Shown here piece by piece: positions 15,850 through 56,365 of a DNA stretch of 64,000 nt. Both the position numbers and the translations under genes were made by a program. Source of the DNA: Polytrichum commune. Lineage: Eukaryota; Streptophyta; Polytrichopsida; Polytrichales; Polytrichaceae. Under the pieces are notes generated by a model that was not told the origin of the DNA, made no database searches, and worked only from the letters and a program-made list of their open reading frames with translations. Positions within the stretch are counted from its first letter, which is position 1, and every line of letters starts with the position of its first letter. The stretch is from contig OX485803.1 of assembly GCA_950295325.1 (NCBI GenBank), positions 32,860,001 through 32,924,000 of the forward strand, written 5' to 3'.

Positions 15850-16259
15850 AATGAAGAGCTCATTATTATAAACAACATCCAACATTCAATGCCATGTTAC
15901 TACTGGATAGGTGCCATGCACTTTCAAATCCTCTCGGCCGCCCGCTTTGGCTCTTGTTGTGCTCTAGGGTTAAGTTACCTCACGAATTCCAAAGAGCGAG
16001 CTCTTCTTTCACTCACCGGATTCAAGGAAATGGCGGAACACGCACGCTTATTCATGTTTATTCTTCATATCCACCGTAACAAGGATGACGGATCCGTCAC
16101 ATTTCCAAGGCTGTTGCTACTAGATGTCAGTGTCCGGACAGAGTTTTGGACATAATCCGTCAAAATTCTAGTGTTTCTATGTCCACCCGCTTACATGTTG
16201 TGGTCTTTCGGGTTTTCTTTAATGATTTTGAATATATTCCTTCCTTGGACTCCTCTCAA
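15850..16259. other. GC-richer unique stretch, unidentified
   Basis: Composition is richer in GC than its surroundings and holds an 88-residue plus-strand frame (15,889-16,155). The translation shows no motif I recognise. It could be a gene fragment captured between elements; there is no evidence of expression. Confidence 0.2.
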
Positions 16260-16827
16260 GACGTTGTTTACACCATGGACCATGAAGTCGTCCCAAGGCC
16301 TTGTAGAATATGTGATTGGTCGTTGAACTCGTCGTGGGATCATTTTGGTTTACATCAAGGAAAAAATGTCAGAGTGACCATGGAGTTCGAGGTCTCCGAA
16401 AGACATATTTTTAAGGCCCACATTATCCACTGACATGATCCAACGGGTTTTGCGGTGGGAAAGATAAAAAGAGATGAACTAGTAGAAAAAGGCAGGGGCC
16501 CATGGCAAAGAAGTGACACTATAATAAATAAATAAACTTAATGAAATACTTTTTGGGGAAGAGAAGACGAAGACAAGAGAAAACATGAGAATGGTCAAAC
16601 TTGAATTTTTTTTCAAAACTACCCTTTTTGAGAATATATTAAAAAAGTCAACACATTCACTTTTGGGTGCATGGTCATTCCTCTTGGTCAACATTCGGTT
16701 TACACCTAGTGTGGGACCCAAAGACTTTGTATATTGATTTTTTGAGAAATCGAACCATGAATGTTGGACCATGGAAAAGGGCCATCTTCCGTGATCCGAC
16801 TTCATGGTCCATGGTGTAAACCGGCCG
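16260..16827. mobile_element. PIF/Harbinger-like MITE, about 568 bp
   Basis: Inverted ends read TTTACACCATGGACCATGAA (16,267-16,286) and the complement of the same 20 bases at the right (16,801-16,820). The right end then runs CCGGCCG to a flanking TAA; the left outer bases are decayed and the left flank is CAA. The TIR is closely related to that of the 20.3 and 29.9 kb copies (GGTTTACAC-ATGGACCA). No transposase is encoded. Confidence 0.65.
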
Positions 16828-16834
16828 TAAGTGA

Positions 16835-20178: not shown

Positions 20179-20313
20179 ATGTTTCCATTCCATGGTATTA
20201 GGCACTTATCATACACGGTCATACACCATGCTTATTACGTTGATAAGCCCTTCGTAAAGTCGCTAGTATGTGGGACCAGGTATAACAAGTGAATAATCCA
20301 TGCATTTTGCTAA

Positions 20314-20825
20314 GGGGCGGTTTACACTATGGACCAAGAGCCATGACCAAGAAAATTAAATCATTTTCATGGTCACAGCTCTTGGCCAAGAGCCGTGACC
20401 ATGAAAAATCAAAAATGGATTTTTGAGTGGCTTGGTCACTCTTGTAGTGTAAAGTGGATTTGGACCGGGACAACTTTGGGCTGATTTTTTTAATTTCTAT
20501 CCCAACGATCTACAGTAACGTCAAAAAGATTCAGGAAAAAAAATATTAAAAAAAAAATTCGGCCAATGGCTGATTTTCAGCCTTACGGCTCCCTTGATTT
20601 CCGTTGAGTCGAGCATTTTGCCTCGCCTCAACGGAAAACCCGTTGGACCATGGCACATTATCCAAATGGCAGATTTTAGTAGTTTTTGGGGACCTCAAAG
20701 TTAGTGGTCATTCTCCTTTTTTCAAGGTAGTGTAAAGCCAAACGGGACCAAGAGCACTTTACTCTCCAATCACAGATTTTAGAATTTCATGGTCATGGCT
20801 CTTGGTCCATAGTGTAAACCGCCCC
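20314..20825. mobile_element. PIF/Harbinger-like (Tourist-type) MITE, copy A, 512 bp
   Basis: Terminal inverted repeats of about 38-45 bp begin GGGGCGGTTTACACTATGGA. A 3-bp direct TAA duplication flanks the element (20,311-20,313 and 20,826-20,828). Subterminal inverted stems (CATGGTCACAGCTCTTGG / CCAAGAGCCGTGACCATG) make it highly foldable. The sequence is almost identical along its whole length to 29,906-30,418, which implies recent movement. It has no transposase. TSD length and TIR fit the Harbinger superfamily. Confidence 0.85.
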
Positions 20826-20828
20826 TAA

Positions 20829-29277: not shown

Positions 29278-29355
29278 ATGAGTGCCCGGGAAGTTTTTGG
29301 GCATAGTCGGTCAAGATCTAGTGATTCTAAATCCAGCCGGTTACATGCATGGTAT

Positions 29356-29445
29356 GCAATAGGTAATCGTTTTATTGGAACCGGTTATCGGTGCAGAACC
29401 GGTTCTGCACTGATAACCGGTTCCAATAAAACGATTACCTATTGC
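29356..29445. repeat. 90-bp near-perfect palindrome without spacer
   Basis: The left arm (29,356-29,400) and right arm (29,401-29,445) are complementary at 44 of 45 positions; the only mismatch would be a G-U pair in RNA. The arms contain GGAACCGGTTATC and end at the centre in GCAGAACC|GGTTCTGC. There is no loop. A plus-strand frame over it (29,278-29,628) is a by-product of the palindrome, not a gene. Confidence 0.95.
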
Positions 29446-29621
29446 AACCGGTTGGCCGCTTTGTTGAGCCACGCAGGTGACCTAAACAGTGGGTCACCTA
29501 TCACCATAACCGATTTAGATGATCATAACCGGCTGGGATGTCGAGGTTATCGTCTGCAAACCTGTGTGCTCAAAGCCAATCGTGTAGTGCCACCTCGGCG
29601 AAACAAAGCGGCCAACCGGTT
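29446..29621. repeat. Nested inverted repeat next to the palindrome
   Basis: A perfect 20-bp inverted repeat AACCGGTTGGCCGCTTTGTT (29,446-29,465) pairs with 29,602-29,621. Within the 136-bp loop a smaller stem AGGTGACC (29,475-29,482) pairs with GGTCACCT (29,492-29,499) over a 9-base loop. AGCCGGTTA (29,335-29,343), left of the palindrome, also pairs with TAACCGGCT (29,526-29,534). Confidence 0.85.
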
Positions 29622-29785
29622 ACGTTGACATCTTCTGGTTTTGCTTTATTCATTCGAGGTATATTCTTCTTTAGATTCCTCTTAAATGATGGGTAATTCT
29701 CCTGAAGTATCCAGCTTCACCTGGTTATTTCTCAAACTCAACCGGTTCATCTGTAACTAACTGCCAATTCTCCCCGGACAGTGTG
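29595..29785 (-). repeat. CCGGTT-rich dispersed repeat R2, copy 2
   Basis: On the minus strand it runs GGGGAGAATTGGCAG, TTACAGATGAACCGGTTGAG, TTTGAGAAATAACC, GAAGCTGGATACTTCAGGAG, GAAGATGTCAACGTAACCGG. The same landmarks in the same order occur at 30,422-30,640 and 56,118-56,360. It leads directly into the palindromic block at 29,356-29,621. It lies head-to-head with copy 3. Confidence 0.7.
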
Positions 29786-29905
29786 ATACACAATCCCAAT
29801 TGCAACACATACAAGGACCGCTTATGCACTCGACCCCATGCTCCAAAGTAAAGTTAGCTTTTTTTTTTTTGGTCAGAATTTTGCCTGCCAACTTCCAAGC
29901 AATAA

Positions 29906-30418
29906 GGGGCGGTTTACACTATGGACCAAGAGCCATGACCAAGAAAATTAAATCATTTTCATGGTCACAGCTCTTGGCCAAGAGCCGTGACCATGAAAAA
30001 TCAAAAATGGATTTTTGAGTGGCTTGGTCACTCTTGTAGTGTAAAGTGGATTTGAACCGGGACAACTTTGGGCTGATTTTTTTAATATTTCTATCCCAAC
30101 GATCTACAGTAACGTCAAAAAAATCGGGAAAACAAAATATTAAAAAAAAATTCGGCCAATGGCTGATTTTCAGCCTTACGGCTCCCTTGATTTCCGTTGA
30201 GTCGAGCATTTTGCCTCGCCTCAACGGAAAACCCGTTGGACCATGGCACATTATCCAAATGGCAGATTTTAGTAGTTTTTGGGGACCTCAAAGTTAGTGG
30301 TCATTCTCCTTTTTTCAAGGTAGTGTAAAGCCAAATGGGACCAAGAGCACTTTACTCTCCAATCACATATTTTAGAATTTCATGGTCATGGCTCTTGGTC
30401 CATAGTGTAAACCGCCCC
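29906..30418. mobile_element. PIF/Harbinger-like (Tourist-type) MITE, copy B, 513 bp
   Basis: It has the same ends as copy A (GGGGCGGTTTACACTATGGA and complement), flanked by direct TAA (29,903-29,905 and 30,419-30,421). Differences from copy A are few substitutions and one- or two-base indels. It sits between two head-to-head R2 repeats. Open frames inside are artefacts of the inverted repeats. Confidence 0.88.
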
Positions 30419-30421
30419 TAA

Positions 30422-30640
30422 AAGGGGAGATCCGGTTGCTAGTTAACGTTGAACCAGTTGAGTTTGAGAGATAACAGGTTGAAGCTCAGAACTACAGGAA
30501 TTTTTACTGAACAAGTTAGGATAATATAGGGAATATACCCAACTTAATATAGAAGAACCAAAAGATGTCAACATGTAACAAGTTGGATTTGGAAACACTA
30601 GGATATTGACCGATGATGCCCCAAAATTTCTCAGGATGCT
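30422..30640 (+). repeat. CCGGTT-rich dispersed repeat R2, copy 3
   Basis: Landmarks are GGGGAGATCCGGTTG, GTTGAACCAGTTGAGTTTGA, GAGATAACAGGTTGAAGCTC, AAGATGTCAACATGTAACAA and CCCCAAAATTTCTCAGGA. They align with 56,118-56,360 and with the reverse of 29,595-29,785. The CCGGTT motifs are partly decayed to CCAGTT or CAAGTT. No coding frame is shared by the copies. Confidence 0.7.
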
Positions 30641-38260: not shown

Positions 38261-40670
38261 CCAACCTTTCTTTCAATTGGACCATAGCTTCTATCTTACG
38301 GAGGCTACATCATTCCGCCACCTTAGAGAATTAGTTGGTTTGAAACCATCACGATGTACATTTCAATTTCATTAGAGATCTTGGTCTATTGTAGTGGGGT
38401 TTAGTTGAAATGAATCACTCACTTCCTAGGACCATATGGTCATGGGTATGAGATGGGGAATGGATGTCTCATGTTCAGTGTATGAAACATTGACCATTTT
38501 TTTTTTGGAATGAATCGCCATGCTCAACATGTAAGGGATATTTATTTATTTATATTTATTTCTTCTTTTCTTTTCTAGAGCCCCTTCATCCACTATGGAT
38601 GAGTTTTCATAGATGCTACAACTTTGAAGCCAAATTCTTAGTCCTTTCTACAATGTCAAACAACCACTATTTCATGTTCTTCCCTTTCATAAGGTGAACA
38701 TGTTCAAAACCAACAATCATTATGTACCATTGTCGCACATTTCAGACCCCCAATGTACCCCCAATGTACAATAGTGGGACAATGTCTTTACTTTGGGTAT
38801 ACTCTCACACATTTTTGCAACGTAAAACACCATTTATGCAAAATAAAATATAAATACACAACAATTTAAAAAAATCACATGCTATAATAATTAAAATTTT
38901 GATAGAGACTGATATCTATCTCTGGCTCTCTCACTCTTTCATACACAACATGCACATCGCCCCTCAAATTAGTAACCCACTCCTCAATGATTATCCTCTC
39001 AGTGGTCTAGGTTGTGTGTGGAGACTCCTATGGAAGGGACATGGCAACCCTTACTAAGACACTTCATAAACTTAAAGAAAGAAAGAAAGAAAGAAATAAA
39101 AAGTAACGTAAGGGTTTGGTTTATACACCGACATGAATGGGAGCCCGTTTCTCTATACCATGTTCATGTTTAATAAGAAAGAAAGAAATCTAGGATCATT
39201 CAAGGAGTATTCCAATATACACACACCCTAGCTAGTTTTGGAGGCACGAGAACAACCTTGTGAAGGCTCAACAATGTTATATGCCATTTTGTGATAGATG
39301 TAAAATAGTGCACAATTTGGGGGACACCACAATCGACCTATCAACAAGAACTAGAAGATATTGTCCTTATAGTAAACACTTTGGTTCAACAACATAATTA
39401 AGAATTTTGAAATATTTTGTCACATGTTTCTATCACATCTTTTGGAACCGTGTAAATTCTCGTGAATAAATTATATATGATTATTAGAAAATCAAAGTCA
39501 TACGTTCATAGTTTTCATCATCATAATTATCTTATCCGTCCATAACATCTATGTACAATGGAAGATGCGGTGGTGGCGGCGAGAATGTTGCCCCACTATT
39601 CCCACCGTTCTTGTCTGAAACTATATATTTTGCATAAATAAAAATCAAAGAAAAGGGCCACACATTCTTCCCACATCAAAATATGTGACCCCAAAACAAA
39701 CAACCAAACAAAACGGGCAAAAAAGAAAAAGAAAAAGAAAAGAATGCATTATCCATAATAATGCAAATCTTTTTGTCTTTCAATGCCATTCTTCGGTTCT
39801 CACTCTTCACCCAATGTGTAAAAACATCACCATTCATCCAGGCCGAATTGTTAGAATAATAGTGTACTGTACTATTTGGATTTATCACAAGGGTGACGCA
39901 TGACCCTTTTGGCTACTACAATCTGTCCATCCAACCATCACATACAATCCATCCATACTTGGTATTATCACATTTACACTACAGATTTTGGAAAAAAATA
40001 GTGACATTACCAAGGGTGATAGGGATAATAACGAGGGAGTTTTACACTATGAAAATCGGTTTCAAACTTTTAGGTGATAATATCAAGGTGTTCTATTAAC
40101 AAGGGTGACATTATCAAGGTTAGACTTTATATACATTGGAAGACTTGGTGGTGCGTGGTGGTAGTGGCCGTTGTCTTGCCGTTCCCCGCTTGCCCTAAAA
40201 AAAATGTTTTCAAAGAAAAAGGGCCACATGCCAAAGTTTCATGTCCAAAAAGAAACATATGAAATAAGAACTAGAAAATAAATGTGGAAAGTAGGGGACT
40301 ACGAACACAAAAGGTGAGTATGGTGGGGGAAACTCGGGAGAGGTGGCAGGCATGGGTACAAGATGGCAACATGTAGCATGGGCCACAGTGCAATGTAGGA
40401 TAATTATTATATTATATCATGTCATGTTATGTCATGTTATGTCATGTTATATTATTAATATTATGTTATATTATGTACAATTAAAATTTAAGAAATTGGC
40501 CTTTTTCTTGAAGTGCTCCATGAGGGCATGGTGGCATGTCATAGGGGTTTATGAGCATGGAGATGAGCACACATGTATATGACATGTATGCATGGGCATG
40601 GGAGGCATATATGCATAGGTTGCATAGATATATGTGGTTGGGTTATCTGGGATATTAATCCATATGCATG
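38261..40670. other. Intergenic with simple repeats
   Basis: An AAAG tract lies at about 39,078-39,097 and three perfect tandem units GTCATGTTAT lie at 40,421-40,450. No protein-coding content is recognised in the short frames present. Confidence 0.45.
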
Positions 40671-40878
40671 GGTGCAACGGATCGGGACAACACATGTGGA
40701 AGTTATGAAACAATGGGAAGATTGTTCATTTTCATACATTACGCTCCTCTTTGCTAATCATCTTAAAGTTAGGTGAACCAAGTTGAATTGGAAGCATCTG
40801 ATGGCCCTTAACAAAACTCTTCATCAACTTCATCTTAAAACTTGAGAAGTCAAGGAATGAATTACCAAGATTGAGAAG
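40671..40878 (+). repeat. Left copy of a direct repeat flanking the LINE region
   Basis: It begins GGTGCAACGGATCGGGACAA and ends ATTACCAAGATTGAGAAG. It is collinear with 44,501-44,717 with many substitutions and small indels. The pair encloses 3.6 kb of degenerate LINE sequence. It does not have the TG...CA ends of an LTR. Confidence 0.7.
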
Positions 40879-40989
40879 AAATAAAATAATAAACAAATCG
40901 AACATCAATGTGTTTATGCATTCATGTGATGTTTGTTTACCATCTCTTATCCATGTCCATATAGACTAGGGTGGAGATGGTTTAATGCC

Positions 40990-43900
40990 TACAATTAGTA
41001 GGTGGATCAACATTTAGTTTGTTATTATTAAAAAATATTATGTGTAGGGTGGTGTTGTGTTTGTTTACGAGAGAGGAATTGGAGCTTGTTTCTTTTAGAG
41101 TTTTCTTTTGTTAAAGATGTTACGTGTGAGGAGTTGGGTGAGTTTGGCGTCTATTATCCAAGGTGCATTCCAAAAGAGGTTGGAACACTATAGGATAATG
41201 TCTTGGTCGGATAGCCATTTTGTCACATTTGGAATTGTGTCGGTGGCATGTGATACTAGGGCATTTGTGTATTAGTTTTCTATATAGTTTCTAATGTTCC
41301 TGACTAAGCCAATGTGTCAGGTTGAGGTGGTGGTGGGGGGGGGGGTAATGGAAGGCCACTATATGTCCTATATGATGGAAGAGGGTTTCTATGATTCATG
41401 ATTTTAGTGCTCCTTGTTTGGTGAGTTTATCCACTTCATCATTACCATTGATGTTTGTGTGTGCTTTCATTTTTATGATTGTGATGTTATGATGCAAGGT
41501 TTTGATGGTGTGTATGATGTGTGCAATGAGGAGTTTGTCTAGGTGATTGTTTTGGGAGGAGGGTTGTCTCATATGGTTTAGTAAAAGTATACGCTATTGA
41601 GGCTATTCTTGAAGATGATTGTATTTGTGGAGAGTGTTTTAATATGTTTTATTGCGAGAAGGAAGGCATATAGTTATGCTCTCAAGATATTTCAGTATTT
41701 GGGCAATTTTATGGATATATGTATTTATAGTGGCTCATTGAAGATTTTAGATCCTAGGATATTACCATTTCCTTCCATGTTGGGGGGGGGGGGGGATAAA
41801 CGACCCGTCAATTTAATATGATTGGATGGGAGGGTATCTTAGGAAGTTTATTTATTTTTTAATTTTTTTGGAGGGGGGGTGCGTGGTGAGATGCCGTTCT
41901 AAGGGAATTGGGTGGTTTTAGTTGTGGTGGATGTTTGTAGTGGGTAGTTGTTATTGTGTTGTAGGATGCTTGGTGTGAGCAATTGGAAGAAGCTAGTTAT
42001 GTTGTCTTGACAATGTTGGTGTGGGACAATTAGTATGGAGGTAAGGAGTGGCTCTTTTGTGTTGTGAAGGGGCATGTTGCTATGATTGGAGTTACGTCTA
42101 TTTGTTGAAGAGGGTTAAATGTGTTATGTGTCCAATCGTCATGATTTAATACTATTGTTGTGGTGCAGTTGGGATATGTTTGGGCCACTCGAAATGCATG
42201 TTATATGGCTTTTGGAATGAGTGCTATATTTGTAATGTGTGTGAGGCCACTGCCTACCCCATCAGTGGGCATAGGCTGGACCAAATGACCCAGAGATTAT
42301 ACCTTTGTCATGTGGGGGAGTAGTATTGTGTGAATTTTGTGGGACATGTGAGTGGGCTTGAGTAGTAAGAGTGTGTGAGGTGGAAATAGTTTATGAGGTT
42401 GTTTAGGATATCATGTGGGAGGGAATGGTGGTTATAGGTGAGGAGTGGGTTGGGTAAGGGTTTGATGTATTGATTGGTTAGTAGGAGGAATTGTGGGTGG
42501 AAATGTCTCTAGTGTGATGTTTGTTTGGTAGCTTTGTTCACGGTCATGGATGTGTGCAAAAGGAGGGTGTATTTGTATTGAGAATTTTGTTGTTTCAATG
42601 TCTTTGTCTAGGTTACATTCTTGGGTGTGTAAGGTAAGGTGTGAGATGGAAAGGCTAGGTTGTACGCATCGGGAGTAAGCACTTTGGTGCTTGTGGGGTA
42701 TTGGATATGGGGTAGGATAATTATGTTGAACGTGGCAATTTTTTTTAAAGATTTTCTTTGTGTTTGATTTTTGGTTGAGGGTGAAGTTGGGATAGAAAGG
42801 GCTTTTGTACCAATCGGTGTGGAGGAGTGATTAGTTAGCATAGAATGTGTTGTCTATTGAGTCAATATGGGTTAATTGAGTATTTTTTTGAGTATAAAGA
42901 GACTTTGCGCAGTAGGTGAACAAGTACATACTTGGTATTTCATGAGTGGGAGGAGTTCAAATTTGGCAACGATGAATTTAACTAAACCTTGGTGTATGTC
43001 TCCGAGTGGTCTTGGATCATCGATTCTTTGTGTTAATTGTTCATTGAGTATTGTACGTATGTTGGGGGGAGGAAGTATGTTTCCATTCCAAATGCTTCTT
43101 TAGGTAATTGGGTGAAGATATTAGGAGTGCTCGTGGGGAGGTTGCATTTGGATTTCGTTAGTTTGGTTAGAAGTATGTCCATTTTGCATATATATGGTAT
43201 TGAGAAGGGGACGGCGTGCAATACATAATCAATGCCTAGGTAGATGACCATGTTGAGGATTCCATGTTTTTTGTTGGAGCAAGGTTGGTGAAAGTAGGAG
43301 GGAGGCACTTTGTTTTTTGATTGTTTACATAGTGATTTTTTTTGGATGTTTCATTTATGGGAGGGGACTAGGTTGATTTCTAGGTAGGTGTAGGGTGAAA
43401 AGGCATTGTTGATTTTTTGTAGTTGATGTTTTGGCTTTTAAGGTATGTTGTAAAGGTTAGTGGTTATAGTTTGGATTTGTTTGGGTAACCTACAACCGCA
43501 GATTTGGTAATTCCTAGGTCCATGTGTGCCCAATCCAAGTATTGTTTTAGTTTGTCTAGTGGTGGTTATATCTATGTCATGTTATTCTCGAGCAATGCTA
43601 GATCATCGGCATATGCTGCAAAATTTATTGTATTAAGGGATTTGTTAAAGTGGTAGCATGGATGGGTTTTCTAGCCATACGAGGAGTCGTGTGATGAAGG
43701 GGTATGGCCCGAAATTGTCTCCTTGTCCAGTGTCACGATTAATGTGGACATGAAAGGGTGTAGTGAAGTGGGTCCTTCTAAAGGATGTGGAAGATTTGGA
43801 AGTATATGTTTCCTTTTAGTGTTATGTCGTGTGTAGGGTAGCTTAGGTCCTCCATTATGGCTAATAGTCTAGGGTGGTCAATGGAACTTAATGCGTTTTT

Positions 43901-44450
43901 GAATCTATGTATGTGAGGCATATATATATTTGTTTGTGCATTTTGCATCTTTGAGAGCGGTGAGGATGGCTTGAATTTGTCACATTGTGTTTCTCATTGG
44001 TATGAAGTTGTCTTGGCTATGATGTAGTCTTTTGCGATGCTAACCAAATGTAGTGAGTAACGTGGTTGTAAATAATTTGTATATGGTACATGCAAGGGCT
44101 ATGGGTCTATAATTTGTGGTTATAGTGGGGTTGTCTTTTTTTATAAGAGGATAGTGGTATTGTGCTTCCATTCATTGGGTACGGGTATTTGATGGTAGTA
44201 TTGTAGGATGAATAGGAGCATCACGTCGTGAAAGTTGTTGGGGAGAGCTTTTAGGATTTCGACGGGGATTCCATCAGTCCCAAGGTTTTGCCTTTAGATA
44301 GGTTTTTAAGGCATGTATCATAGATGATTCTGGTGAACATTGATGCTAGTAGGGCGTTTGGTGTAGTGCGTTTTTCAAACATGAGTCATTATTTTGTGTG
44401 CCATGGATATTCTTGAATGGTGCACATACAATCATTGGGATGGTATGTGA
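40990..44450 (-). pseudogene. Degenerate non-LTR retrotransposon (LINE): reverse transcriptase and RNase H
   Basis: Translating the minus strand gives clear landmarks in the expected order. TDGIPVEILKALPN is encoded at about 44,237-44,278, NEWKHNTTILL near 44,155-44,190, and NYRPIALACTIYKLFTTTLL at about 44,055-44,114. The catalytic block AAYADDLALLEN is at about 43,584-43,620 (YADD at 43,602-43,613). An RNase H-like NDEVDKLTKQ is near 41,413-41,448. Stops and frameshifts interrupt all blocks, so it is dead. The endonuclease part should lie above 44,450 but is not visible; a direct repeat begins there. RT copies RNA at the nick for insertion; RNase H removes the RNA strand. The family looks unlike the common angiosperm L1 type. 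Confidence 0.8.
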
Positions 44451-56117: not shown

Positions 56118-56365
56118 ACAAGGAGAACCAACGGCTAGGTGGAGATGAACCGGTTGAGTATGAGAAATTACCGGTCGAAGCTCAAGACTTCATGAGGATT
56201 GCCGATCTTTTGAGAGGAATTTAAAGAATGTCAGTCAAATCGATAAAGAAAAAAAAAGTGAAAGACGTCAACACGGAACCGGTTGGACTTGGAGAACACG
56301 CGGATCTTTTAGCCGAGTATGCCCAAAAATCTCCCCGGACACATGTTTCCTGCACTAAAAATAGA
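56118..56365 (+). repeat. CCGGTT-rich dispersed repeat R2, copy 4
   Basis: AAGGAGAACCAACGGCTAGG, GATGAACCGGTTGAGTATGA, GAAATTACCGGTCGAAGCTC, GACGTCAACACGGAACCGGT, TGCCCAAAAATCTCCCCGGA. This copy keeps most CCGGTT motifs. It aligns with 30,422-30,640 and the reverse of 29,595-29,785. Several frames are open for 60 or so codons but are not shared with the other copies. Confidence 0.7.

Follow-up and report, generated by a model that had tools for sequence, protein, structure and literature searches.

Among the described rolling-circle transposons, Helitron2 and the HINE elements provide the main points of comparison for the locus considered here. According to the description of Helitron2 (Bao and Jurka, 2013; PMC3627910), these elements carry asymmetric inverted repeats of 8–15 bp, one of which is 5'-terminal while the other lies immediately upstream of a 3' hairpin, about 20–30 bp from the end. 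In the same source, Helitron2 is defined by a 5' terminal hairpin that involves the 5' repeat, a 5' T is preferred, and the short algal element Helitron-1N1_CRe is reported to use the target TTTT without duplicating it, whereas some algal relatives do duplicate their target (PMC3627910). HINE or DINE-1 elements are non-autonomous Helentrons, whose boundaries were established with the aid of empty sites (Thomas et al., 2014). That work describes them as non-coding, with inverted repeats that have a palindromic core, one close to the 5' end and the other set in from the 3' end by 38–60 bp, followed by a 3' palindrome of 5–10 bp, and with insertion at TT or in T-rich sequence (PMC4067079). The layout of these groups is also described in a further source (PMC5148889).

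Cryptons have terminal direct repeats of 4 or 6 bp and no inverted repeats, and most CryptonS elements have TATGG termini. The IS200/IS605 elements, which are prokaryotic, possess a subterminal hairpin, do not duplicate their target, and use a target word that resembles the cleavage word of their other end. Replitrons, which are said to have been described by Craig in 2023, are reportedly HUH-type elements found in non-seed plants, with short similar words at both ends. In a review, they are reported from algae and non-seed plants, encode a Rep protein without a helicase, lack inverted repeats and are able to make target duplications of 2–8 bp (PMC10741241).

The palindromic locus and its dispersed copies

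Within the 64-kb stretch of Polytrichum commune DNA that was analysed (the window), a loopless palindrome of 92 bp, in which 45 of 46 pairs are matched, is located at 29355–29446. It is the same object, with one more pair, as the 90-bp palindrome (44/45) reported by the first-pass annotation, and no other loopless palindrome in the 64 kb exceeds about half its length (arm scores of 48 versus 24 and 24). The RNA fold predicted for 29340–29640 has an energy of -157.2 kcal/mol (z = -13.9), and none of 100 shuffled sequences was as stable. The perfect 20-bp inverted repeat noted earlier is present as well (29446–29465 with 29602–29621; or 25 nt at 92%), and it encloses a stem at 29475–29499, formed by AGGTGACC (29475–29482) and GGTCACCT (29492–29499), which is seen both in the sequence and in the RNA fold. 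The word AACCGGTT occurs eight times in the window, five of these within the element, versus 0.63 expected by chance.

A genome search on the assembly (407.8 Mb in 64 contigs) with a 301-base query identified 40 near-full-length places, including the window, with 93–100% identity. These are the 40 places that were scored among 223 first-look candidates; they are distributed over all seven large contigs (C1–C7), and all of them match the palindrome on the opposite strand as well. The seven large contigs are reminiscent of plants with n = 7, such as Polytrichum mosses. With 39 further places of this kind, the palindrome is real and the assembly artefact considered earlier is excluded; for the outermost 7 bases of either arm, the window copy is the only support. 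The end motif GGCCAACCGGTTACG has 529 matches in the genome with at most one mismatch, in comparison to 7 for its reversed control. As an intact copy can yield two such matches, this number suggests very roughly 260–530 copies, and the element is probably present in a few hundred copies. None of the literature titles searched describes this family; most subscription papers and Repbase lie outside that scope, and the family is not presented here as unpublished.

The copies compared below comprise 39 near-full-length places and 20 stretches around end-motif matches. In an alignment of the first 39 places with the window copy, the ends are sharp and the flanks are unrelated, except in L009 and its segmental twin L010. 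The twin is omitted from counts of 57 and 39 and included in those of 59; the 57 copies are thus the 58 oriented loci minus L010, with the window copy uncounted, and L059, where two elements lie on one piece, is omitted from the flank and hairpin counts. As 39 of the 58 loci are best-scoring matches, both the identities and the proportion of 268-bp copies are overestimates.

The common type of the element is 268 bp long and accounts for 36 of 57 copies, a share inflated by the choice of copies; other types are 250–411 bp in length. Read from left to right, the family begins with the tip TATTA, which is followed by a palindrome (78 bp and perfect in the common type), GGA and the inner inverted repeat CGTAACCGGTTGGCCGCTTTGTT, and then by a variable middle and the terminal repeat copy ending in GGTTACG. 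The 23-bp inverted repeat is therefore asymmetric, being terminal at one end and, in the common type, 86 bp inside the other. A hairpin beside one end is predicted in all 59 copies (the window copy and L010 counted) with 25–57 pairs, and in the other types the hairpin block is up to about 50 bases longer and its centre is structured. Ten places with a single exact end motif, which were screened for long elements, proved to be 283–411 bp in length. The longest copy read is 411 bp, so that none is likely to be able to encode a transposase. In 37 copies of 268 bp, covariation between the arms amounts to 4 compensated and 39 one-sided cells (shuffle mean 0.86, maximum 5 in 2000), a signal too weak to be of use; a single change at one and the same pair accounts for two of the compensated cells.

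In the window, the element occupies 29357–29624 (268 bp), from the tip CAATAGG to GGTTACG, its ends being placed by the 58 oriented loci and the empty sites. The family-wide loopless palindrome corresponds to 29362–29439 (78 bp, 39 pairs) and shows no mismatch in the 268-bp consensus. The inner copy of the inverted repeat is at 29443–29465, where the first three bases deviate from the family, and the terminal copy, AACAAAGCGGCCAACCGGTTACG, is at 29602–29624. As the window copy reads CAATAGG...CCTATTGC in place of the family's TATTAGG...CCGGACGT, its palindrome extends to the element tip. A 24-base word made up of TGCAATAGG plus arm was found genome-wide only in the two window arms and, if one mismatch is allowed, at a single further place. 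In L002, L007, and L032, two to four bases after the palindrome are changed towards the complement of the copy's own tip. Nine extra bases, CATGGTATG (29348–29356), separate the host ATG from the tip; they have no counterpart in the compared relatives of the host repeat (the L046 flank and two relatives in the window) and themselves end in the target word TATG. From these comparisons, the palindrome's outermost 7 bp and the nine junction bases look private to the window copy. Self-templated copying of one arm may have extended the palindrome to the tip, and the nine bases could be donor flank that was carried over, or filler.

Host sequence, target and empty sites

The stretches on the two sides of the element, 29304–29347 (the last bases of which are the target ATG) and 29625–29784, match one continuous stretch of the flank of L046. 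Judging from this match, the window copy jumped into the CCGGTT repeat, which is thus its host sequence. The first-pass annotation correctly recognized this repeat as dispersed, and relatives of it are present in the window at 30440–30630, 56143–56342, and 16144–16256; its description of the palindrome as abutting a repeat member gives way to that of an element inserted into one copy. The comparison of host flanks covered 45 loci, 13 of the 58 having been missed by the stricter expression used there. The dispersed host repeat (including 29304–29784) carries the motifs GAACCGGTTGA and ATGTAACCGG, and the element has inserted into it at L014 and L046, among others, as well as in the window. Next to L056, the host copy has a 12-mer, GTAACCGGTTGG, in common with the inverted repeat of the element, where the window's own host copy reads GTAACCGGCTGG.

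Some other features of the window may be recorded here. Two copies of a 517-bp element (29903–30419 and 20311–20826), which are 98% identical, have inverted ends GGGGCGGTTTACACTATGG / CCATAGTGTAAACCGCCCC and TAA on both sides; this element looks like a Harbinger-type MITE, and 16258–16832 may hold a diverged relative of it. The GC skew in 40001–44000 is 0.39 and 0.50, compared with about -0.23 to 0.12 in the other 2-kb windows. Glutaredoxin and GRXCR1-2_C domains are present in a protein encoded by the window, which is of a kind known from land plants.

The three bases to the left of TATTAGG are ATG in 46 of the 57 copies, ACG in eight, TTG in two, and AAT in one, and the fourth base is T in 41. 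Taken as four bases, the left flank reads TATG or TACG in 38/57 and another word, mainly GATG or AATG, in the remaining 19. The element itself ends in TACG in 53/57 copies, and the right flank is weakly biased, the next base being T in 29/57.

Empty sites were informative in five cases. An abundant repeat (1616 first-look candidates) carries the insertions L017 and L020 in two of its copies, in both at one and the same base (GATG|AT), which suggests that the choice of target goes beyond ATG. Twelve empty copies were fetched out of the 39 other listed places of this repeat, and in all 12 of them GATG is followed directly by ATT without any gap. Among 11 copies that were aligned to the window and L046 sequence, L014, L035, and L046 represent plain insertions after ATG; the alignments of L023, L027, and L056 were gapped or too diverged near the junction, and for L055, L039, L011, L024, and L034 no alignment spanned it. 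The five resolved cases (L014, L035, L046, L017, and L020) indicate that ATG belongs to the target, and in them the target bases are neither duplicated nor lost. A scan of 39 copies (window included, L010 omitted) for target duplications of 1–9 bp, with offsets of up to 8 on either side, also gave no support for any duplication; the best excesses were 16 matches versus 10.8 expected at length 1 and 6 versus 2.5 at length 2, and there were none at lengths 7–9.

The rolling-circle reading and its rivals

The lack of target duplication, the one-sided target word, the hairpin at one end and the asymmetric inverted repeats together point to HUH single-strand transposition. We favor, with a probability of roughly 0.6, the interpretation that the element is a non-autonomous transposon whose mobile form is single-stranded DNA and whose movement follows the rolling-circle pathway of an HUH nuclease, the termini being arranged like those of Helitron2 and HINE but with a giant hairpin. 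The earlier suggestion that the palindrome might be the end of a foldback transposon was thus right in kind, in that it is part of a transposon, but in place of a foldback end there is an entire transposon of small size, one end of which is a hairpin. In the rolling-circle reading, the element would run 5' to 3' on the minus strand, where a nuclease would nick before C(G/A)TA at both ends (CGTA at the element start and C(A/G)TA in the 3' flank of the target). The long hairpin may then act as the 3' stop signal, with the end point possibly set by pairing between the two inverted repeats.

In relation to Helitron2, the element is similar in that its 23-bp asymmetric repeat is terminal at the minus-strand 5' end and in that no target duplication is made, as in Helitron-1N1_CRe. 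The 3' repeat is followed by a hairpin in the order seen in Helitron2, here with 3 bp between them, but in the common type of our element this repeat lies 86 bp from the end rather than about 20–30 bp. Its repeat is, however, 23 bp long rather than 8–15 bp, its hairpin (25–57 predicted pairs) is far longer, its minus-strand start is CGTAACC, with C in place of the preferred T, and its target is A(T/C)G on the hairpin side instead of the TTTT of Helitron-1N1_CRe. A 5' hairpin of the Helitron2 type was not seen in the element, where this region gave -2.5 kcal/mol when folded as DNA (z = +0.76) and showed only the palindromic AACCGGTT core. Because the 5' hairpin is not seen and the preferred 5' T is absent, we keep the element out of Helitron2; by analogy, it appears to work like Helitron2 without being filed as a member. 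With HINE, it shares inverted repeats near both ends, a 3' palindrome and the lack of coding capacity, whereas its palindrome of 78 bp, the position of its 3' repeat at 86 bp from the end and its target A(T/C)G rather than TT are different. Helitron1, which has 5' TC and 3' CTRR and inserts between A and T, was considered and rejected, the ends here being TATTAGG and GGTTACG, the target A(T/C)G, and the next base T in 29/57.

The strongest rival is provided by Replitrons, since these HUH elements occur in non-seed plants and carry short direct terminal repeats, and our element also has short similar words at both ends (TATG or TACG in 38/57 left flanks, TACG at 53/57 element ends). That it is a non-autonomous member of another HUH group, either of the Replitrons or of an undescribed Y1 group following IS200/IS605-like logic, is in our view doubtful. 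In the Y1 version, the flank TA(T/C)G would be the same word as the element end TACG and one enzyme would serve both; the 38/57 left flanks and 53/57 element ends of this form are in accordance with it, but the other 19 left flanks are not, and the left word is seen from the empty sites to be part of the target. The element resembles IS200/IS605 in its subterminal hairpin, the absence of duplication and a target word like that of the other end; IS200/IS605 elements are, however, prokaryotic, and no Y1_Tnp match was found in the genome of this host. Replitrons, for their part, lack inverted repeats and are able to duplicate their target (PMC10741241), whereas here inverted repeats are present, duplication is absent and the left word is target sequence. 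The Viral_Rep profile had no match in the genome, and its controls were equally silent, so that this result is uninformative with regard to Replitrons. Also doubtful, and if anything a little less probable, is an as yet undescribed land-plant group of single-strand transposons, IS200/IS605-like, in which the mostly TA(T/C)G target is read as a copy of the element's own right end TACG, the loopless hairpin of about 78 bp is the terminal signal, and the nuclease is neither the classic Helitron RepHel nor Y1_Tnp.

Transposition by a Crypton-like element, with a tyrosine recombinase acting through a 4-bp core TA(T/C)G, would agree with the short similar word at both ends, with the absence of target duplication, and with the 4- or 6-bp direct repeats and TATGG termini of Cryptons. 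We nevertheless regard it as improbable: Cryptons lack the inverted repeats that are present here, and the right end is ACG in 53/57 copies as against ATG at the left in 46/57, so that the exchange point seems to be fixed at one edge and not within the core. In addition, the assembly contains a single Phage_integrase match, on contig C23, although the Pfam model may miss Cryptons. This match (C23:4199–4615) lies in an open frame of 370 aa, and the piece is perhaps a contaminant or of organelle origin. The 23-bp inverted repeat, the small size and a copy number of probably a few hundred would also suit a cut-and-paste MITE, in which a DDE transposase acts on the inverted repeats and the hairpin was acquired at one end; this is very unlikely, since the five resolved insertions show no target duplication and the copies read have their true left end past the hairpin and thus outside the inverted repeat. 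Least credible of all is a hairpin-RNA or microRNA locus, a local duplication or a misassembly. The fold is indeed very stable (-157.2 kcal/mol), but the Rfam matches, which are mostly miRNA-shaped, are all far below their gathering scores, and dispersed copies with clean empty sites refute each of these as the origin of the locus, including the recombination-born duplication that had been suggested at first; a hairpin-RNA locus is also not required to explain it.

A possible coding partner and the significance of the family

In the rolling-circle reading, the enzyme would be supplied by an unlinked RepHel element. The genome contains 34 matches to the Helitron Rep domain, 33 of them above the Pfam cut-off, and both Helitron loci that were tested have Rep and PIF1-type helicase domains. 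A coding Helitron family of 10.8 kb (L067 with L082 and L083; L079 with L084 and L085) carries a 10-bp asymmetric inverted repeat, GAGAAGAAGT, located 3 bp from its 5' end and 12 bp from its 3' end, where two copies define both ends and a third the 5' end. By this arrangement of their sequence, the ends of the family are Helitron2-like.

No coding element with the ends of the small family was found in 22 of the 34 Helitron loci, which were read over 6.3–9 kb each, with two over 18–21 kb, most Helitron ends lying beyond these stretches; for Helitron families A and C, the comparison of copies gave no clear ends. Four partner patterns with excluded interiors gave 3, 16, 0, and 1 matches in the genome, none of them a convincing partner; most look, by their letters, like ordinary small copies, and two, at C3:37778928 and C2:5789440, are stray matches. 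As the reversed control of the first pattern gave 71 matches, single matches to it mean little. These partner searches are blind to partners sharing fewer than about 17 end bases, to the 12 unread Helitron loci and to ends outside the stretches read. The nearest partner-like word is the 13-mer TCTTAGGTAATCT, which has two mismatches to the tip and occurs in L065, L067, L070, L072, and L079; it lies in the interior of these members of one Helitron family.

The family presents a case in which a perfect palindrome of 78 bp persists in many copies of a plant genome, and the window copy is one instance in which such a palindrome appears to have grown. The range of 25–57 predicted hairpin pairs between its dispersed types offers a substrate for studying how rolling-circle transposons stop, for which the short element, with its fixed ends, defined target word and exact empty sites, has useful traits.
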